From: Bacilli bacterium
GTDB taxonomy: Bacteria > Bacillota_I > Bacilli_A > RFN20 > CAG-826
DNA: 64,000 nt
NCBI GenBank assembly: GCA_017447165.1
Contig: JAFSOD010000004.1
Location: forward strand, 367,267-431,266
Direction: 5' to 3'
The notes under the pieces: model-generated
Databases searched by the model: none
Seen by the model: the letters and a program-made list of their open reading frames with translations, nothing else
What the model was told of the DNA's origin: nothing
Position numbers and translations under genes: made by a program
In this document: piece after piece, positions 6,039 through 33,603 of the stretch
How the letters are laid out: every line of letters starts with the position of its first letter
Numbering within the stretch: the first letter of the stretch is position 1

Positions 6039-7255
6039 TGATTAAAACTGTTAAGGCTCCACATATCTTACTTCCAAGAAAAGGAGTGGATATGTCTAAA
6101 TATGCGGTCATTGCCTGTGACCAATACACTTCTAATCTTGAATATTGGGATTCACTAAAAAAACAAATTGGTAGTGAAGTCTCTACTTTCAACATGATTT
6201 ATCCAGAAGCGTATTTAGAAAACACTGATAATGACAAATACATTGAAGGTATCAACAAAAATATTGCGTCTTATTTAAAAAATAATGACCTAGAAGATAT
6301 TGGCGAATGTTTTATTCTTGTAGAGAGAGTTACATCATACGGAGTTAGACGTTTAGGCCTTATCTTATCGGTAGATCTAGAAGACTATTCCTATGAAAAA
6401 GGGACTGACGCTTTAATTAGAGCCAGCGAAGCAACAATCGTAGAGAGAATTCCTCCAAGATTAAAGATTAGAAAAGATGCTCCTATTGAATTACCACATA
6501 TCTTGGTGCTCTTTGATGATCCTAAAAAGACAATTGTGGAAGAGTTATATGCTCAAAGGGACAAATTAGAAAAAGTTTATGATTTTGAACTCAACAAAGA
6601 TGGTGGTCATATTCGTGGATATAAAGTTAGTAACACCAAAGAAGTAATTACTAAGTTTGATGAATTATTCCATAGGAATAACAACGGATTATTATTCATT
6701 GTTGGTGATGGTAACCACTCTTTAGCGACCGCCAAGGCGCATTGGGAAATTGTGAAAAAAGATTTATCTCCTGAAGAAAGAGAAAACCACCCAGCGAGAT
6801 TTGCTTTAGTAGAAGCTAATAACTTATATGATGATGGAATCATCTTTGAACCAATTCATAGAGTGTTATTCAACGTTGATAAAGATTTTGAAAAACAACT
6901 ACGTGATGTCTGTACAGGCGAATATAAATCCTTTGCTTACACGAAAGAAGAAGGTAAGAAGGAATTAAAACTTCCTAAGAACGCTCCTAAAGCATATTTA
7001 ATGGTGCAAACATTCCTAGATGTTTATTTAAGATTACACCCACAAGCAAAAATCGACTTCATTCATGATGAAGAAGAATTACTTGCGGTCAGTGATAAAA
7101 ACCCTGGCAGTGTTGCTATAGCAATGCCTGCTTTAACTAAAGAGGACTTATTTGATTATTTGGCCTCTGGCACAGTGCTTCCTAGAAAATCATTCTCTAT
7201 GGGACACGCAAATGAAAAACGCTATTATCTCGAAGCCAAGAGAATAATAAATTAA
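6038..7255 (+). CDS. DUF1015 family protein
   Basis: 405 aa, matching the DUF1015 family often found beside serA/serC in Firmicutes; its biochemical role is not established. Visible family features are the start KAPHILLPRKGVDMSKYAVIACDQYT, IVERIPPRLKIRKDAP, and the highly conserved FIVGDGNHSLATAKAHWE. The C-terminus has a PRKSFSMGHANEKRYYLEAKR tail. I chose the ATG at 6038, which overlaps the gdhA stop as TAATG, rather than an in-frame TTG at 6032. Its place between gdhA and serC suggests a link to serine or amino-acid metabolism. Confidence 0.85.
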   Translation: MIKTVKAPHILLPRKGVDMSKYAVIACDQYTSNLEYWDSLKKQIGSEVSTFNMIYPEAYLENTDNDKYIEGINKNIASYLKNNDLEDIGECFILVERVTSYGVRRLGLILSVDLEDYSYEKGTDALIRASEATIVERIPPRLKIRKDAPIELPHILVLFDDPKKTIVEELYAQRDKLEKVYDFELNKDGGHIRGYKVSNTKEVITKFDELFHRNNNGLLFIVGDGNHSLATAKAHWEIVKKDLSPEERENHPARFALVEANNLYDDGIIFEPIHRVLFNVDKDFEKQLRDVCTGEYKSFAYTKEEGKKELKLPKNAPKAYLMVQTFLDVYLRLHPQAKIDFIHDEEELLAVSDKNPGSVAIAMPALTKEDLFDYLASGTVLPRKSFSMGHANEKRYYLEAKRIIN

Positions 7256-7276
7256 TTTATTAAAAGGAGAAAATAT

Positions 7277-8362
7277 ATGGCGAGAATTTTTAACTTTTCT
7301 GCCGGTCCAGCCATGCTTCCAGAAGAAGTATTAAAAGAGGCTGCAGAAGAAATGCTTGATTACCGTGGATGCGGAATGTCCGTGATGGAGATGTCACATA
7401 GATCCAAGGTCTATCAACAAATTATTGATGAAGCGGAGGCAGACTTACGTAAATTAGTGGGTATCCCAGATAATTATCGTGTCTTATTCCTCCAAGGTGG
7501 TGCAACCCTCCAATTTGGTATGATTCCAATGAACTTAATGACCATTAACAAAAAAGCGGATTATATCAACTCTGGTGTCTGGACAAAGAAGGCTATTCAA
7601 GACGCTAAATTCTTTGGTCAAGTAAACGTTGCCGGAAGTAGTGAAGATGTGCAATTTAAGCGCGTTCCTGATGTGAAATCGCTCAAATTAGACCCTGAAG
7701 CTGACTATGTTTATATGTGTGACAACAACACAATCTATGGTACTAAATTTAAAGAATATCCAGATACTGGTAAAGTCCCATTAATTTGTGATATGTCATC
7801 CTGTTTTTTAAGTGAACCAATTGATGTTAAGAAGTTTGGAATGATTTATGCTGGCGCGCAAAAGAATGTTGGTCCAGCTGGAGTCACCATCATCATTATT
7901 AGAGATGATTTAGTGGAACGTAGTAAAGAATTACCGCTTCCTGTTTATTTAAGATACGCTCCACATGTGGAAAACGGCAGTATGTATAATACCCCACCAA
8001 CATACGGTATTTATATCTGTGGCAAAGTCTTCAAATGGTTACTTGCTACTGGTGGATTAGAGAAGAGAAAAGAACTTAACGAAGCAAAAGCAAAGATTCT
8101 TTATGATTATTTAGATAGCTCCTCTTTCTATAAACCAAGTGTTGAAAAAGATTCTCGTTCATTAATGAACGTTACCTTCAGAACTCCAAGCGAAGAATTA
8201 GACGCTGCATTCTTAGAAGGTGCGAAAAAATATAAATTCACTAACTTAAAAGGTCATAGATCTACTGGTGGATTAAGAGCCTCTATTTATAACGCGATGC
8301 CAATCGAAGGTGTTAAAGCTTTAGTGAAATATATGAAAGAGTTCGAAGAGGAACATAAATAA
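7277..8362 (+). CDS. serC: Phosphoserine aminotransferase
   Basis: 361 aa PLP enzyme that makes 3-phosphoserine from phosphohydroxypyruvate and glutamate. It has the SerC start FNFSAGPAMLPEEVL, the RGCGMSVMEMSHRS block, FLQGGATLQF (cofactor phosphate contacts), the Schiff-base lysine in YAGAQKNVGPAG, and the C-terminal GHRSTGGLRASIYNA. Full length. The ribosome binding site AAAAGGAG lies just upstream. Second step of serine synthesis, directly followed by serA. Confidence 0.96.
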   Translation: MARIFNFSAGPAMLPEEVLKEAAEEMLDYRGCGMSVMEMSHRSKVYQQIIDEAEADLRKLVGIPDNYRVLFLQGGATLQFGMIPMNLMTINKKADYINSGVWTKKAIQDAKFFGQVNVAGSSEDVQFKRVPDVKSLKLDPEADYVYMCDNNTIYGTKFKEYPDTGKVPLICDMSSCFLSEPIDVKKFGMIYAGAQKNVGPAGVTIIIIRDDLVERSKELPLPVYLRYAPHVENGSMYNTPPTYGIYICGKVFKWLLATGGLEKRKELNEAKAKILYDYLDSSSFYKPSVEKDSRSLMNVTFRTPSEELDAAFLEGAKKYKFTNLKGHRSTGGLRASIYNAMPIEGVKALVKYMKEFEEEHK

Positions 8363-30407: not shown

Positions 30408-30794
30408 ATGACAAGAAGAAAACCGCTAATTTACGATCCAACTTTACTTATCGAGGCGATTAAGAAATGGCCTAATCCCATGTATGAAAAAAAACATGAT
30501 CTTTATATATATGTTGAAGGTAACGCTAGAAGTAATCAAACAAGAGTGGATCATATTGTTGAGTATGGTCATGACTTAAAAGTTAGAGATTTAGAGTCGG
30601 TGCCAGAAGGAATCAAGAATTACTTTGCTTACAAGAAGGACCCCGTATATAAAAATACGTTTAATTATTACATTAAAAGAAAGGGAATGGATAAAGGGTT
30701 TATTAAAGTTTCTATAAGAATAAGTGATAATGACCCGCATTATGCCTGGATAAAAACAATATTCATTTCTTATAAAATAAAAGAATTGCCATAG
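30408..30794 (+). CDS. Small basic hypothetical protein, possible BECR-fold RNase-like domain
   Basis: 128 aa from the ATG at 30408 (MTRRKPLIYDP...). The start fits the promoter spacing better than an in-frame upstream start that would add 13 residues. The C-terminal half has DHIVEYGHDLKVRD, an NTFNYYIKRKG strand and AWIKTIFISYKI. This pattern (His-Gly-His region followed by beta strands) faintly recalls phage-type BECR nucleases, but I cannot confirm it. It is isolated, has no ribosome binding site, and lies directly before two RNA genes. It could be an uncharacterised toxin or a decayed phage gene. Confidence 0.5.
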   Translation: MTRRKPLIYDPTLLIEAIKKWPNPMYEKKHDLYIYVEGNARSNQTRVDHIVEYGHDLKVRDLESVPEGIKNYFAYKKDPVYKNTFNYYIKRKGMDKGFIKVSIRISDNDPHYAWIKTIFISYKIKELP

Positions 30795-30813
30795 CGATTA
30801 TATTTGTTATAAT
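30786..30813 (+). promoter_or_regulatory. Promoter of the ~120-nt structured RNA
   Basis: TTGCCA (30786-30791), 16-bp spacer, perfect TATAAT (30808-30813). The expected start, 7 nt downstream, is G30820, exactly the first base of the RNA's closing stem. The -35 overlaps the end of the preceding coding region. Confidence 0.75.
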
Positions 30814-30819
30814 AAAATC

Positions 30820-30940
30820 GTCAGAGGTGGAGAACCAGTGTGCGACCACGACGCATTCCTTCGGGAATGGATGCAGCGATCCAGGATGTTAACTGCCCTG
30901 GCTGACGAATAAGTATCTTCCAAGTGGGAGATATTTTTTT
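30820..30940 (+). ncRNA. Small structured RNA, class not recognised
   Basis: About 120 nt with its own promoter and terminator. The closing helix is GTCAG (30820-30824) with CTGAC (30902-30906). It holds a hairpin CATTCC-TTCG-GGAATG (30854-30869, extra-stable UUCG loop, extended by outer GC/GC pairs) and a hairpin CCAGG (30881-30885) with CCTGG (30897-30901) that would stack directly on the closing helix. No start codon with a ribosome binding site is present. It is not SRP RNA (no GGAA-loop domain) and not a tRNA. Function unknown. Confidence 0.75.
30914..30940 (+). terminator. Intrinsic terminator of the small RNA
   Basis: TATCTTCC (30914-30921) pairs with GGGAGATA (30926-30933, one G-U) around an AAGT loop; seven T follow. 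Confidence 0.85.
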
Positions 30941-31126
30941 ATATACATGCACATATGCGTGCGTCGCGATTTTCTATTATATTTTTTATGTTTATTATTT
31001 TTTATATTTATAATATTAAAAACTAATAAAAAACATTTTTTTCAAAAAAATATTAAAAAAGTAATTTAACATAGTTAAATTAAAATATTATTTATAAAAA
31101 AAGTGAAAAATAATTTAAAAAAACGC
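30941..31126. other. AT-rich spacer without genes
   Basis: About 185 bp, largely A/T runs (for example around 31010-31120). I see no reading frame, repeat or structured element until the promoter at 31127. Confidence 0.6.
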
Positions 31127-31155
31127 TTGCAATAGTTTTTCAATAAGCGCATACT
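31127..31155 (+). promoter_or_regulatory. Promoter of the large triplicated RNA
   Basis: TTGCAA (31127-31132), 17-bp spacer, CATACT (31150-31155). Start expected near 31162. The region is also flanked by GCTT...AAGC symmetry (31126-31147). Confidence 0.55.
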
Positions 31156-31230
31156 TATACACATCCAACACCGAAAGGCTCTTGGTTGAGAGATAATTAA
31201 TGATAGTTAATTAACTCTCAAGACTGGATA

Positions 31231-31485
31231 AGTCAATCACCGCGAAAAAGAAGAAGTTGATACAGCGGCCTACTAAGAATTAAAACAAAATTGATCTTAG
31301 ACTAATGATTGCACCAGCACGGTAGAAGACTCGTTCTCCTACCAAGGCACATCCTCCCCGTTACAGTGGATGCTGAGTTAGAACTTAACAGCTGAAAATC
31401 CACCGCCTGACAAGATCGAAGAGGACAGATATGAGGTAATAGCCATATCCACGACCGAATCACGCTACAATCAACTTAAAACGTG
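31231..31485 (+). repeat. RNA module 1
   Basis: Pseudoknot: TCAA 31233-31236 with TTGA 31257-31260, and CCGC 31240-31243 with GCGG 31265-31268. Hairpin: CTAAGA 31273 with TCTTAG 31295. Anchor at 31304. Hairpin: GGTAG 31321 with CTACC 31339. Nested core: TCCTC 31352 with GAGGA 31421, GTGGAT 31366 with ATCCAC 31398, GCTG 31372 with CAGC 31389. Distal hairpin: CACG 31461 with CGTG 31482, loop containing TCAACTTAAA. Confidence 0.85.
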
Positions 31486-31541
31486 AGATAAGTAGTCGAG
31501 ACCGCAAGATACTCGATACGAAAAAGGTTTGAAGTTCAGCT

Positions 31542-31798
31542 AACGTCAGACAATCAGCCCAATACACAACGTTGATAGTGAGGCATCTAGAATTAAATCT
31601 TCTAGTCAATGATTGCAGTTAACTTGCCATTAAGAATAATGGCTAAACGGCCCACCTCCCTGCTACAGTGGTCACTGAGTTAGAGCTTAACAGTGTAGAA
31701 AATCCACCGCCGGACACGATCAAAGAGGTAAAGAAAAAGTCTTATTAACTAAAAAGAATAGGAAAAACCTAATCCACATTATTCAACTCAAAGTGTGG
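31542..31798 (+). repeat. RNA module 2
   Basis: Pseudoknot: AACGT 31542 with ACGTT 31569, and GCC 31557 with GGC 31582. Hairpin: CTAGA 31587 with TCTAG 31601. Anchor at 31608. Hairpin: GCCATT 31626 with AATGGC 31638. Nested core: ACCTC 31654 with GAGGT 31725, GTGG 31668 with CCAC 31704, CACTG 31673 with CAGTG 31691. Distal hairpin: CCACA 31774 with TGTGG 31794, loop containing TCAACTCAAA. Confidence 0.85.
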
Positions 31799-31870
31799 TG
31801 AGACTTAGAAGGGTTACAAACTCTTAGCACCTTCTAAGCAGAAATGGTCTAATGAGCTTAAGACTAGATA

Positions 31871-32122
31871 ATTCAATCAGGTCCTTGAATTGAGTGGGGA
31901 CCTCTGGAAATTAAAAGCTTCCAGTTAAATGATTGCACTAGCAAAGGATTAGAAGAGATTCTAATCATCGGTACGTTCCTCCCTGATGGCAACATCACTG
32001 GTCTCCGCGTTAAAGTTTGACGGAGTAAACCCAGCACCGGACATGACAAAGAGGAAGACAGCCTCGAAGCTAACAACTAGAGGAAGCTGGCCATTGATAC
32101 GCAAATCAATTCATAACGTATC
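31871..32122 (+). repeat. RNA module 3
   Basis: Pseudoknot: ATTCAA 31871 with TTGAAT 31885, and GGTCC 31880 with GGACC 31898. Hairpin: CTGGAA 31904 with TTCCAG 31919. Anchor at 31928. Hairpin: GATTAGAA 31947 with TTCTAATC 31959. Nested core: TTCCTC 31976 with GAGGAA 32051, CTGG 31998 with CCAG 32031, CTCCG 32003 with CGGAG 32021. Distal hairpin: GATACG 32096 with CGTATC 32117, loop containing TCAATTCATAA. Confidence 0.85.
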
Positions 32123-32190
32123 AAAATCAAGAAGCACCACCAGTCAAAAGGAACTTAGCTTAAACACTGTGCTCGCACAGAGTCACGGCT

Positions 32191-32219
32191 AGCGGTAATG
32201 AGAAAAACCGCTTTTTTTT
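32191..32219 (+). terminator. Intrinsic terminator of the large RNA
   Basis: AGCGGT (32191-32196) pairs with ACCGCT (32207-32212), followed by eight T. Confidence 0.85.
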
Positions 32220-32232
32220 CGCACTTTTTCGA

Positions 32233-32261
32233 TTGTTTTACTATATAACACGTGTTATAAT
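32233..32261 (+). promoter_or_regulatory. Leaderless promoter with 16-bp palindromic operator for the Xre-DUF3990 gene
   Basis: TTGTTT (32233-32238), 17-bp spacer, perfect TATAAT (32256-32261); the ATG follows 6 nt later. A perfect 16-bp palindrome, TATAACACGTGTTATA (32244-32259), fills the spacer and overlaps the -10. This is the expected geometry for autorepression by the Xre protein encoded next. Confidence 0.8.
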
Positions 32262-32267
32262 GTCAGC

Positions 32268-33128
32268 ATGAAATCATACGACATACAAAAAGATTGTTTA
32301 TTAATTAGAAGAATGCTCAAAATGACACAGACTGAGTTTGCCGATGCGATCGAATTATCTTTTGCCACTATTAATCGCATTGAAAATGGAAAACATCGTC
32401 CTACTAATCCTATTATTGAAAAAATATATAGTTATGCTTATGAAAACAATTTGAGAATTAATAGCGTTCTTTCTGAAATTCTTCAAGAATCGTTTAATTG
32501 TATTTATTTTCATGGTGCAAAGAACGATATTGAAGGTGAACTAGACTTAAATCATTCTGATAAGAACATCGATTTTGGTCCGGGGTTTTACTTAGGTGAA
32601 TCATATAAACAGGCCTCTTCTTTTGTATCTAATGATAAAAATGGATCTGTTTATGTTTTCAAACTTGATGAAAGAAAATTAAACACCGTTAGTCTAGAAG
32701 TTGATTTAGATTGGATGCTAGCGATTTGTTATTATCGAGATACCTTAAAAGAGGCGCATCGTAATTCCTGCTACATTCAAAGATTAATTAAAAGAATCGA
32801 AGAAGCTGATGTGATAATAGCTCCTATTGCAGACAATTCGATGTATGAAATTATTACTAAATTCGCTCAAGGTAAGTTGACTGACGTCCAAGCAAGTCAT
32901 TGTTTATCTGCATCGTATTTAGGTAAACAACACGTAATTAAAAGTAGTAAAGCATTAACTAATTTAAAATTTGTTAATCGCCTATATTTATGTAAGCAAG
33001 AAAAAATAGATATATTAAAAGGAAAAGTGGAAGAAGATAAAATTGCAAACACAAAAGTAGATGCTTGTTTGATTAAATACCGTAGAGAAGGCAAATATAT
33101 CGAGGAAATACTAGATGAAATTAACTGA
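32268..33128 (+). CDS. Xre-type HTH regulator fused to a DUF3990 (ADP-ribosyltransferase-like) domain
   Basis: 286 aa. Residues ~8-60 are an Xre/Cro HTH (MTQTEFADAIELSFATINRIENGKHRPTN). Residues ~80-240 match DUF3990, with FHGAKNDIE at the start and DFGPGFYLGESYKQAS, the hallmark of this ART-like family; related domains act as toxins. It combines likely operator binding and a likely effector in one chain. The start ATG is fixed by the leaderless promoter. It overlaps the partner gene by 14 bp, so this looks like a two-gene toxin-antitoxin-type module. The substrate is unknown. Confidence 0.8.
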   Translation: MKSYDIQKDCLLIRRMLKMTQTEFADAIELSFATINRIENGKHRPTNPIIEKIYSYAYENNLRINSVLSEILQESFNCIYFHGAKNDIEGELDLNHSDKNIDFGPGFYLGESYKQASSFVSNDKNGSVYVFKLDERKLNTVSLEVDLDWMLAICYYRDTLKEAHRNSCYIQRLIKRIEEADVIIAPIADNSMYEIITKFAQGKLTDVQASHCLSASYLGKQHVIKSSKALTNLKFVNRLYLCKQEKIDILKGKVEEDKIANTKVDACLIKYRREGKYIEEILDEIN

Positions 33129-33603
33129 TGAAATGATCAAGATTTGTGAAATACAAGCATCGTATTTTTCTTCTTCAATAGAAGATTTTACTTGTGGTAG
33201 CAGGCTATTTACTTTTCGATTTATGAATTCAAAATTAGCAAAGTTACTAGATAATCCGGATTATATGTCTTTATATACTCCAACAAATTATAAAGAATTA
33301 TTGATTAAAGAATATCCAGGCTTAAATCAAAAGTATGGTTATAAAGTCGATGAACCGATTATGCACTGGATTGGCTATATCTATAGAGCAATCAGCTTAT
33401 TGCTACACATTTCATCAAAACACCTTTTAAAGAAGCTCCCGTTTGCCGATATGGTTTTTCTATATAAAGTCCATCATACTTATGGAGTTGAATACTGTGT
33501 TAATCGAATTAATCAAGAATATCAACTTGTTCGAACAAATAGTAGCGAAGAAAAAGAAATAGCAAAAAAAGTTTATAAAGACTTAATAATGTCTTTAAAA
33601 TAA
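33115..33603 (+). CDS. Partner protein of the DUF3990 module, function unknown
   Basis: 162 aa, mostly alpha-helical, soluble, with no motif I can name. Segments worth noting are DFTCGSRLFTFRFMNSKLAKLLD, PIMHWIGYIYRAISLLLHISSKHLL and a C-terminal TYGVEYCVNRINQEY. Proteins of this kind are found next to DUF3990 genes, which supports an antitoxin or accessory role. It is translated from an ATG inside the end of the upstream gene. The nitroreductase gene follows after 17 bp but has its own strong ribosome binding site. Confidence 0.65.
   Translation: MKLTDEMIKICEIQASYFSSSIEDFTCGSRLFTFRFMNSKLAKLLDNPDYMSLYTPTNYKELLIKEYPGLNQKYGYKVDEPIMHWIGYIYRAISLLLHISSKHLLKKLPFADMVFLYKVHHTYGVEYCVNRINQEYQLVRTNSSEEKEIAKKVYKDLIMSLK

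Follow-up and report, generated by a model that had tools for sequence, protein, structure and literature searches.

What kind of gene occupies about 1.06 kb of bacterial DNA in which no coding frame is found and an identical 10-mer recurs three times, and does its product belong to one of the large bacterial RNA families already described? The window, i.e. the whole stretch of 64,000 nucleotides that was analysed, stems from a host genome of 1.3 Mb that is 96% complete, and all RNA features discussed here lie on its forward (+) strand. Judged from its sequence, the segment 31160-32219 constitutes a non-coding RNA gene that stands alone; it measures approximately 1,050 nt and comprises a promoter, three tandem modules and a terminator.

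Borders of the gene and transcription signals

The longest stop-to-stop frames of the array measure 75 amino acids on the plus strand and 67 amino acids on the minus strand, and 35 related arrays likewise hold just short frames. Since these frames are short and variable in length across the related arrays, a coding gene is rejected, and the original prediction of about 1.06 kb without a coding frame was correct in this respect.

Transcription would start from a promoter that was read from the sequence as TTGCAA-17 nt-CATACT (31127-31155, with the -35 box at 31127-31132 and the -10 box at 31150-31155). Similar hexamers precede most of the homologous arrays at the corresponding place, with a modest excess over shuffled sequences (mean best score 8.9/12 vs 7.8/12). 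Just 5' of the -35 box lies a very AT-rich, UP-element-like stretch with an A-tract (31057-31126). Over 37 arrays, the 70 nt upstream of the promoter have a mean of 11.9% GC compared to 35.5% for the loci, and 36 of the 37 possess an A-tract there. Because this AT-rich upstream block resembles an UP element, the array RNA is probably strongly transcribed. At the other end, a putative intrinsic terminator (32191-32219) is formed by an AGCGGT...ACCGCT hairpin followed by eight T, and such a hairpin with a T-run closes 35 of the 37 homologous arrays. A generic consensus scan listed neither the promoter nor the terminator of the array, both being weak by that consensus, but the counterparts in the homologues bear out the proposal that these two signals bracket the gene.

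The catalogued part of the RNA

Each module contains one full-length match, including the hairpin, to the Rfam family RF02946 (cow-rumen-1). The matches were located with cmscan at 31363-31424 in module A (73.0 bits), at 31665-31728 in module B (73.6 bits) and at 31995-32054 in module C (75.3 bits), with a spacing of 302 and 330. All three scores exceed the curated cut-off of 53.4 bits, and so do those of most modules of the other arrays. Because every module carries such a match, the suspected novelty of the RNA is partly refuted. The part of the claim that stood concerns all other families: none of them overlaps the array RNA in the window, 13 related loci match RF02946 only, and the models of ROOL, GOLLD and OLE yielded no match in the whole window at the gathering score and none at E <= 5 for 30780-32260.

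The family RF02946 is a lone 61-nt motif with one hairpin, whereas in the array the motif makes up about one fifth of a module (61 of ~310 nt) and occurs one, three or five times per RNA. The array described here is not a single 61-nt element, as three of them are present per transcript, each inside a ~310-nt module. The conserved 3' tail, which the RF02946 model leaves unpaired, is accounted for in the array by the helices P13 and P8, and the family lacks the tandem layout, the caps and the module-to-module contacts of the array. Both have rumen-derived genomes as their source. No text on RF02946 or cow-rumen-1 was found in the literature searched, and the 1-kb molecule with its tandem architecture is absent from Rfam and from the papers covered by a limited search, mostly without subscription papers. 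The capped tandem-domain architecture appears to be new with regard to what was searched, the known parts being the 61-nt Rfam piece and the group of large ornate bacterial RNAs.

Modules and caps

The array opens with a 5' cap (31160-31221), delimited by covarying helices in 28-35 arrays and consisting of a GAAA-loop hairpin (31164-31186) and a long hairpin (31188-31219), the latter occupying the place of an acceptor segment. It is followed by module A, the first type (31222-31449), module B, the middle type (31457-31762), and module C, the last type (31770-32083). Module B opens with an acceptor region composed of P1, P2 and the K1 segment, and module C opens with an acceptor region as well. 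All three modules were delimited by covarying helices, B and C in combination with nearest-neighbour typing, and all A modules that were tested are nearest to the A modules of other arrays. The 3' cap (32084-32190) is an acceptor region without a module after it, for which covariation indicates the helices 32086-32090/32140-32144 and 32095-32101/32117-32123 and a hairpin at 32164-32183.

A hand tally of the homologous arrays gave about 39 complete three-module arrays, two complete five-module arrays and a further one cut at the contig start, and about five homologues that have just one module and differ in their 5' half (L048 at 7195-7330, L114, L115, L116 and L044). Arrays with two or four modules were not encountered in contig interiors in this tally; the two-module array of genome G001 and the split array of genome G003 sit at contig ends. 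One contig (L041, G008:C53) bears a three-module and a five-module array, and a third array is located on another contig of the same genome. In L120 (G535:C2) and L090, the 3' cap is truncated, a clear terminator is lacking, and the array is possibly decayed.

The three Rfam matches, independent of each other and scoring 73-75 bits, and the same layout in the complete three-module arrays are far beyond chance and confirm that the RNA consists of three tandem copies. They are indeed diverged copies of one domain, but the proposed unit of ~255 nt does not hold, since the repeat measures ~300-330 nt. Moreover, diverged as they are, the copies fall into three distinct positional types that are not interchangeable, and the separate 5' and 3' caps come in addition. 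In a tree, the modules cluster by position, with A first, B in the middle and C last, and after exclusion of near-identical pairs (identity >= 0.9) the nearest neighbour is of the same positional type in 98 of 98 modules. The order in the five-module arrays is A-B-A-B-C. Modules within one array are hardly more alike (identity 0.534) than different types across arrays (0.523). The tandem layout therefore is old, as the agreement of the positional types implies, and predates the spread of the RNA family.

Local helices and a pseudoknot

The 10-mer AATGATTGCA is found exactly at the positions originally given for it (31304, 31608 and 31928) and represents the 3' strand of the covarying helix P4 in each module (31234-31239/31306-31311 in A, 31551-31556/31610-31615 in B and 31874-31879/31930-31935 in C). 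Compensatory double events were counted on a tree and compared with 1000 matched null draws; P4 shows 13 of them in A, 14 in B and 19 in C (0/1000 null each). A pseudoknot helix, P13, crosses P8. It is formed by 31648-31651/31709-31712 in module B, with six double events (0/1000 null), by 31345-31348/31405-31408 in module A, where the signal is weak (two events, 12/1000), and by 31969-31972/32036-32039 in module C, where the sequence is invariant. The GACA between P13 and P8 is nearly invariant and unpaired.

RNAalifold, applied to 28 non-redundant arrays, returned dozens of helices with compensatory changes, and when every pair of columns was scanned in an alignment of 35 arrays (24 effective sequences, mean identity 0.62), local helices emerged at equivalent places across the modules. 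After the A-B junction had been realigned independently with MAFFT, its 58 pairs were 90.2% paired, compared to 83.2% after shuffling and 27-43% after sliding, and 36 of the 58 pairs show changes on both sides. Compensatory changes at dozens of pairs in the homologues thus substantiate the earlier claim of selection on RNA structure.

Contacts between neighbouring modules

Two kinds of predicted loop contacts, K1 and K2, link each module to the next element of the array. For K1, the donor loop of module A (31381-31386) pairs with the acceptor segment 31532-31537 of module B (GAACUU/AAGUUC), that of module B (31683-31688) with 31854-31859 of module C and that of module C (32013-32018) with 32151-32156 of the 3' cap. 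Covariation supports all three: A-B is 98.8-99.4% paired with eight compensatory double events, B-C 98.8% with eight and C-cap 98.2% with three (0/1000 null each). The K1 pairing of 98-99% lies above every one of 500 whole-strand shuffles, and in an unplanned negative control, with K1 set six columns off, it fell to 35%. Full 6-bp K1 matches to the correct neighbour are present in 33, 32 and 29 of 35 arrays, compared to 6 to 22 for wrong partners.

For K2, the donor loop 31255-31261 of module A pairs with the hairpin loop 31470-31476 of module B (AGUUGAU/AUCAACU; 93-95% paired, six double events, 0/1000 null), and that of module C (31888-31892) pairs with 32107-32111 of the 3' cap (99.3% paired, three double events, 0/1000 null), both with covariation. 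Between B and C, the donor loop 31571-31575 is complementary to 31783-31787 (GUUGA/UCAAC); both segments are present in all 28 arrays compared, without any compensatory change. At the A-B junction, the counts from the independent MAFFT alignment are in line with this (K1 99.4% and K2 93.1% paired). Among the long-range helices of the column-pair scan in the 35 arrays, defined by a span >140 nt and >= 5 bp, K1 of A-B, B-C and C-cap and K2 of A-B and C-cap covary most strongly. The remaining long-range candidates covary less, and among the longer of them several join K1 or K2 segments to the wrong partner. By eye, K1-type complementarity was seen in the five-module arrays at every junction that could be read. 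Hence K1 at all three junctions and K2 at two of the three are supported by the sequence evidence. As a separate observation, also made by eye, some of the single-module homologues keep K1-like (GGACUU/GAGUCC) and K2-like (GUUGA/UCAAC) complementarity. We are highly confident of the anatomy as mapped, i.e. the gene borders, the module types, the helices, the pseudoknot and the covarying K1 and K2 contacts predicted from these alignments.

A capped chain as the proposed fold

We propose a fold for the ~1,050-nt structural RNA in which three homologous domains form a capped chain. With its K1 donor, which lies in the cow-rumen-1 hairpin, and its K2 donor, which lies in the P5 loop, each module would dock on the opening acceptor region of the next one. 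A local hairpin of the 5' cap would fill the first acceptor site and the 3' cap would serve module C as acceptor, which would leave no interface of the molecule unsatisfied. It is this logic of donors, acceptors and caps that suggests a single chain, and the K1 and K2 contacts probably form within one molecule.

K1 and K2 could also form wholly or partly between copies, which would result in a homo-oligomer with a domain swap, a ring or a cage, as for ROOL and GOLLD. Pair counts and covariation fit contacts within one molecule and between copies alike, and the contacts of ROOL and GOLLD that had been found by covariation and first taken as tertiary turned out to be intermolecular (PMC12286853). 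Against this stands that the 3' cap provides the last acceptor while the 5' cap removes the first, so that a single chain is already satisfied, that the K1 matching is specific to the next module of the same RNA, and that the number of modules varies (1, 3, 5), unlike in a fixed symmetric cage. We regard an oligomer as rather unlikely.

Among the possible roles of the capped chain, we favour that of an architectural, multivalent platform, on which a protein or ribonucleoprotein partner might meet the conserved module core several times over. The copy number and the conserved unpaired bases are the two observations behind this tentative suggestion, which is the least-supported step of the model. 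The same repeated copies with nearly invariant unpaired bases, such as the GACA, would also suit a sponge RNA, whose modules titrate a regulatory protein as CsrB and CsrC do for CsrA; the AT-rich, strong-looking promoter region and the lack of a linked gene point in the same direction. However, a sponge needs neither fixed module types with specific mutual contacts nor an odd copy number. We consider a sponge unlikely, slightly more so than an oligomer. The explanation as a whole, a transcribed structural RNA that forms a capped three-domain chain and acts as a platform, seems to us about as apt to hold as to fail.

Distribution and genomic neighbourhood

Of 224 genomes from the family of the host, 44 contain RF02946; they belong to 10 of 35 genera, and this patchy presence speaks against the platform role. 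A 145-position model again found 44 genomes, among 279 of the order; the model R1 kept just 8 pairs and works mostly as a sequence profile. Outside the own genus, there were no matches in a class sample (395 genomes) or a phylum sample (392 genomes), and none of the sampled genomes outside the family carries a homologue. When named genomes were scanned with a pattern, 39 stretches were retrieved, all from metagenome-assembled genomes labelled Erysipelotrichaceae, Bacillales or Bacilli except for two lone matches, one in Dokdonia and one in an archaeon. Where the titles of the matches name a source, it is rumen, reticulum, omasum or ruminant. Neither IMG/VR, searched with one exact pattern, nor phages and plasmids, searched with blastn, gave a match, and a viral, phage or plasmid origin is rejected on this basis.

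The neighbours differ among the loci, no gene family being common to more than 5 of 37, and a linked protein partner gene was therefore rejected. Four close genomes share the locus, with a membrane-protein gene on one side of the array and a nitroreductase gene on the other. At the same locus in two further genomes (G007 and G002), the array is absent and a small RNA is found just upstream of the nitroreductase gene, which indicates that gain or loss concerns the whole array as one block. In the window, a small structured RNA of this kind (~95 nt, 30818-30936, plus strand) has its own promoter-like site, TTGCCA-16-TATAAT (11/12), and a terminator. It has no Rfam match and occurs in 16 of 59 relatives in up to four copies.

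Downstream of the array, 32268-33603 (plus strand) contains an HTH-DUF3990 gene and then a small overlapping gene, in a layout like that of toxin-antitoxin pairs. This position could make the array a cis-acting leader or a tandem riboswitch for the downstream gene. Such a role is very improbable, since the terminator-like hairpin ends nearly all arrays and the downstream gene is not conserved. In genome G010, the HTH-DUF3990 gene is missing beside the array while the rest of the locus is kept, and the array directly adjoins the nitroreductase gene. The truncated copies L120 and L090 might point to a gene in decay or a mere DNA-level repeat, with no function as RNA, but the compensatory changes contradict this reading, and it hardly deserves further consideration.

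Comparison with other large RNAs and implications

ROOL and GOLLD are large ornate bacterial RNAs with kissing loops backed by covariation (PMC12286853), and the array RNA, with its predicted loop contacts, resembles them in this regard. In contrast to the array, for which the viral, phage and plasmid searches gave no match, they are encoded by phages or prophages, often near tRNA islands; the array and the sole tRNA of the window are 5.4 kb apart. They also form cages of identical copies, whereas the array would hold tandem domains in one chain. OLE RNA is a dimer in vitro (PMC12286853). It shares with the array that it is a large structured bacterial RNA with RNA-RNA contacts (predicted ones in the array), but the array lacks an OLE match in Rfam. 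OLE RNA is not known to be made of tandem modules. CsrB and CsrC contain several copies of one structural unit per transcript, and the units of CsrB are short hairpins with a GGA loop, while the units of the array are ~310-nt domains with specific contacts to their neighbours. In the phi29 packaging RNA, every interface of the chain or ring is made by the same loop-loop contact, but its units are separate molecules, whereas those of the array belong to one transcript, capped at either end, with predicted contacts between them.

The proposed chain of the array RNA would be the RNA counterpart of a repeat protein. With a little less assurance than we give to the explanation as a whole, it could be the first natural RNA built in this way, with homologous domains of ~310 nt, one two-loop interface, end caps and growth by A-B pairs only (1, 3, 5).

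An orphan 61-nt Rfam motif becomes a complete gene of about 1 kb with borders, domains and contacts, and since these are now defined, structure and function are directly testable. The few large ornate bacterial RNAs on record gain a seemingly non-phage member. If the chain model is true, RNA resembles repeat proteins in being able to evolve a large architecture through duplicated domains, an interface that is used again and caps at the ends, and RNA design would be offered a natural scaffold whose length can be tuned.
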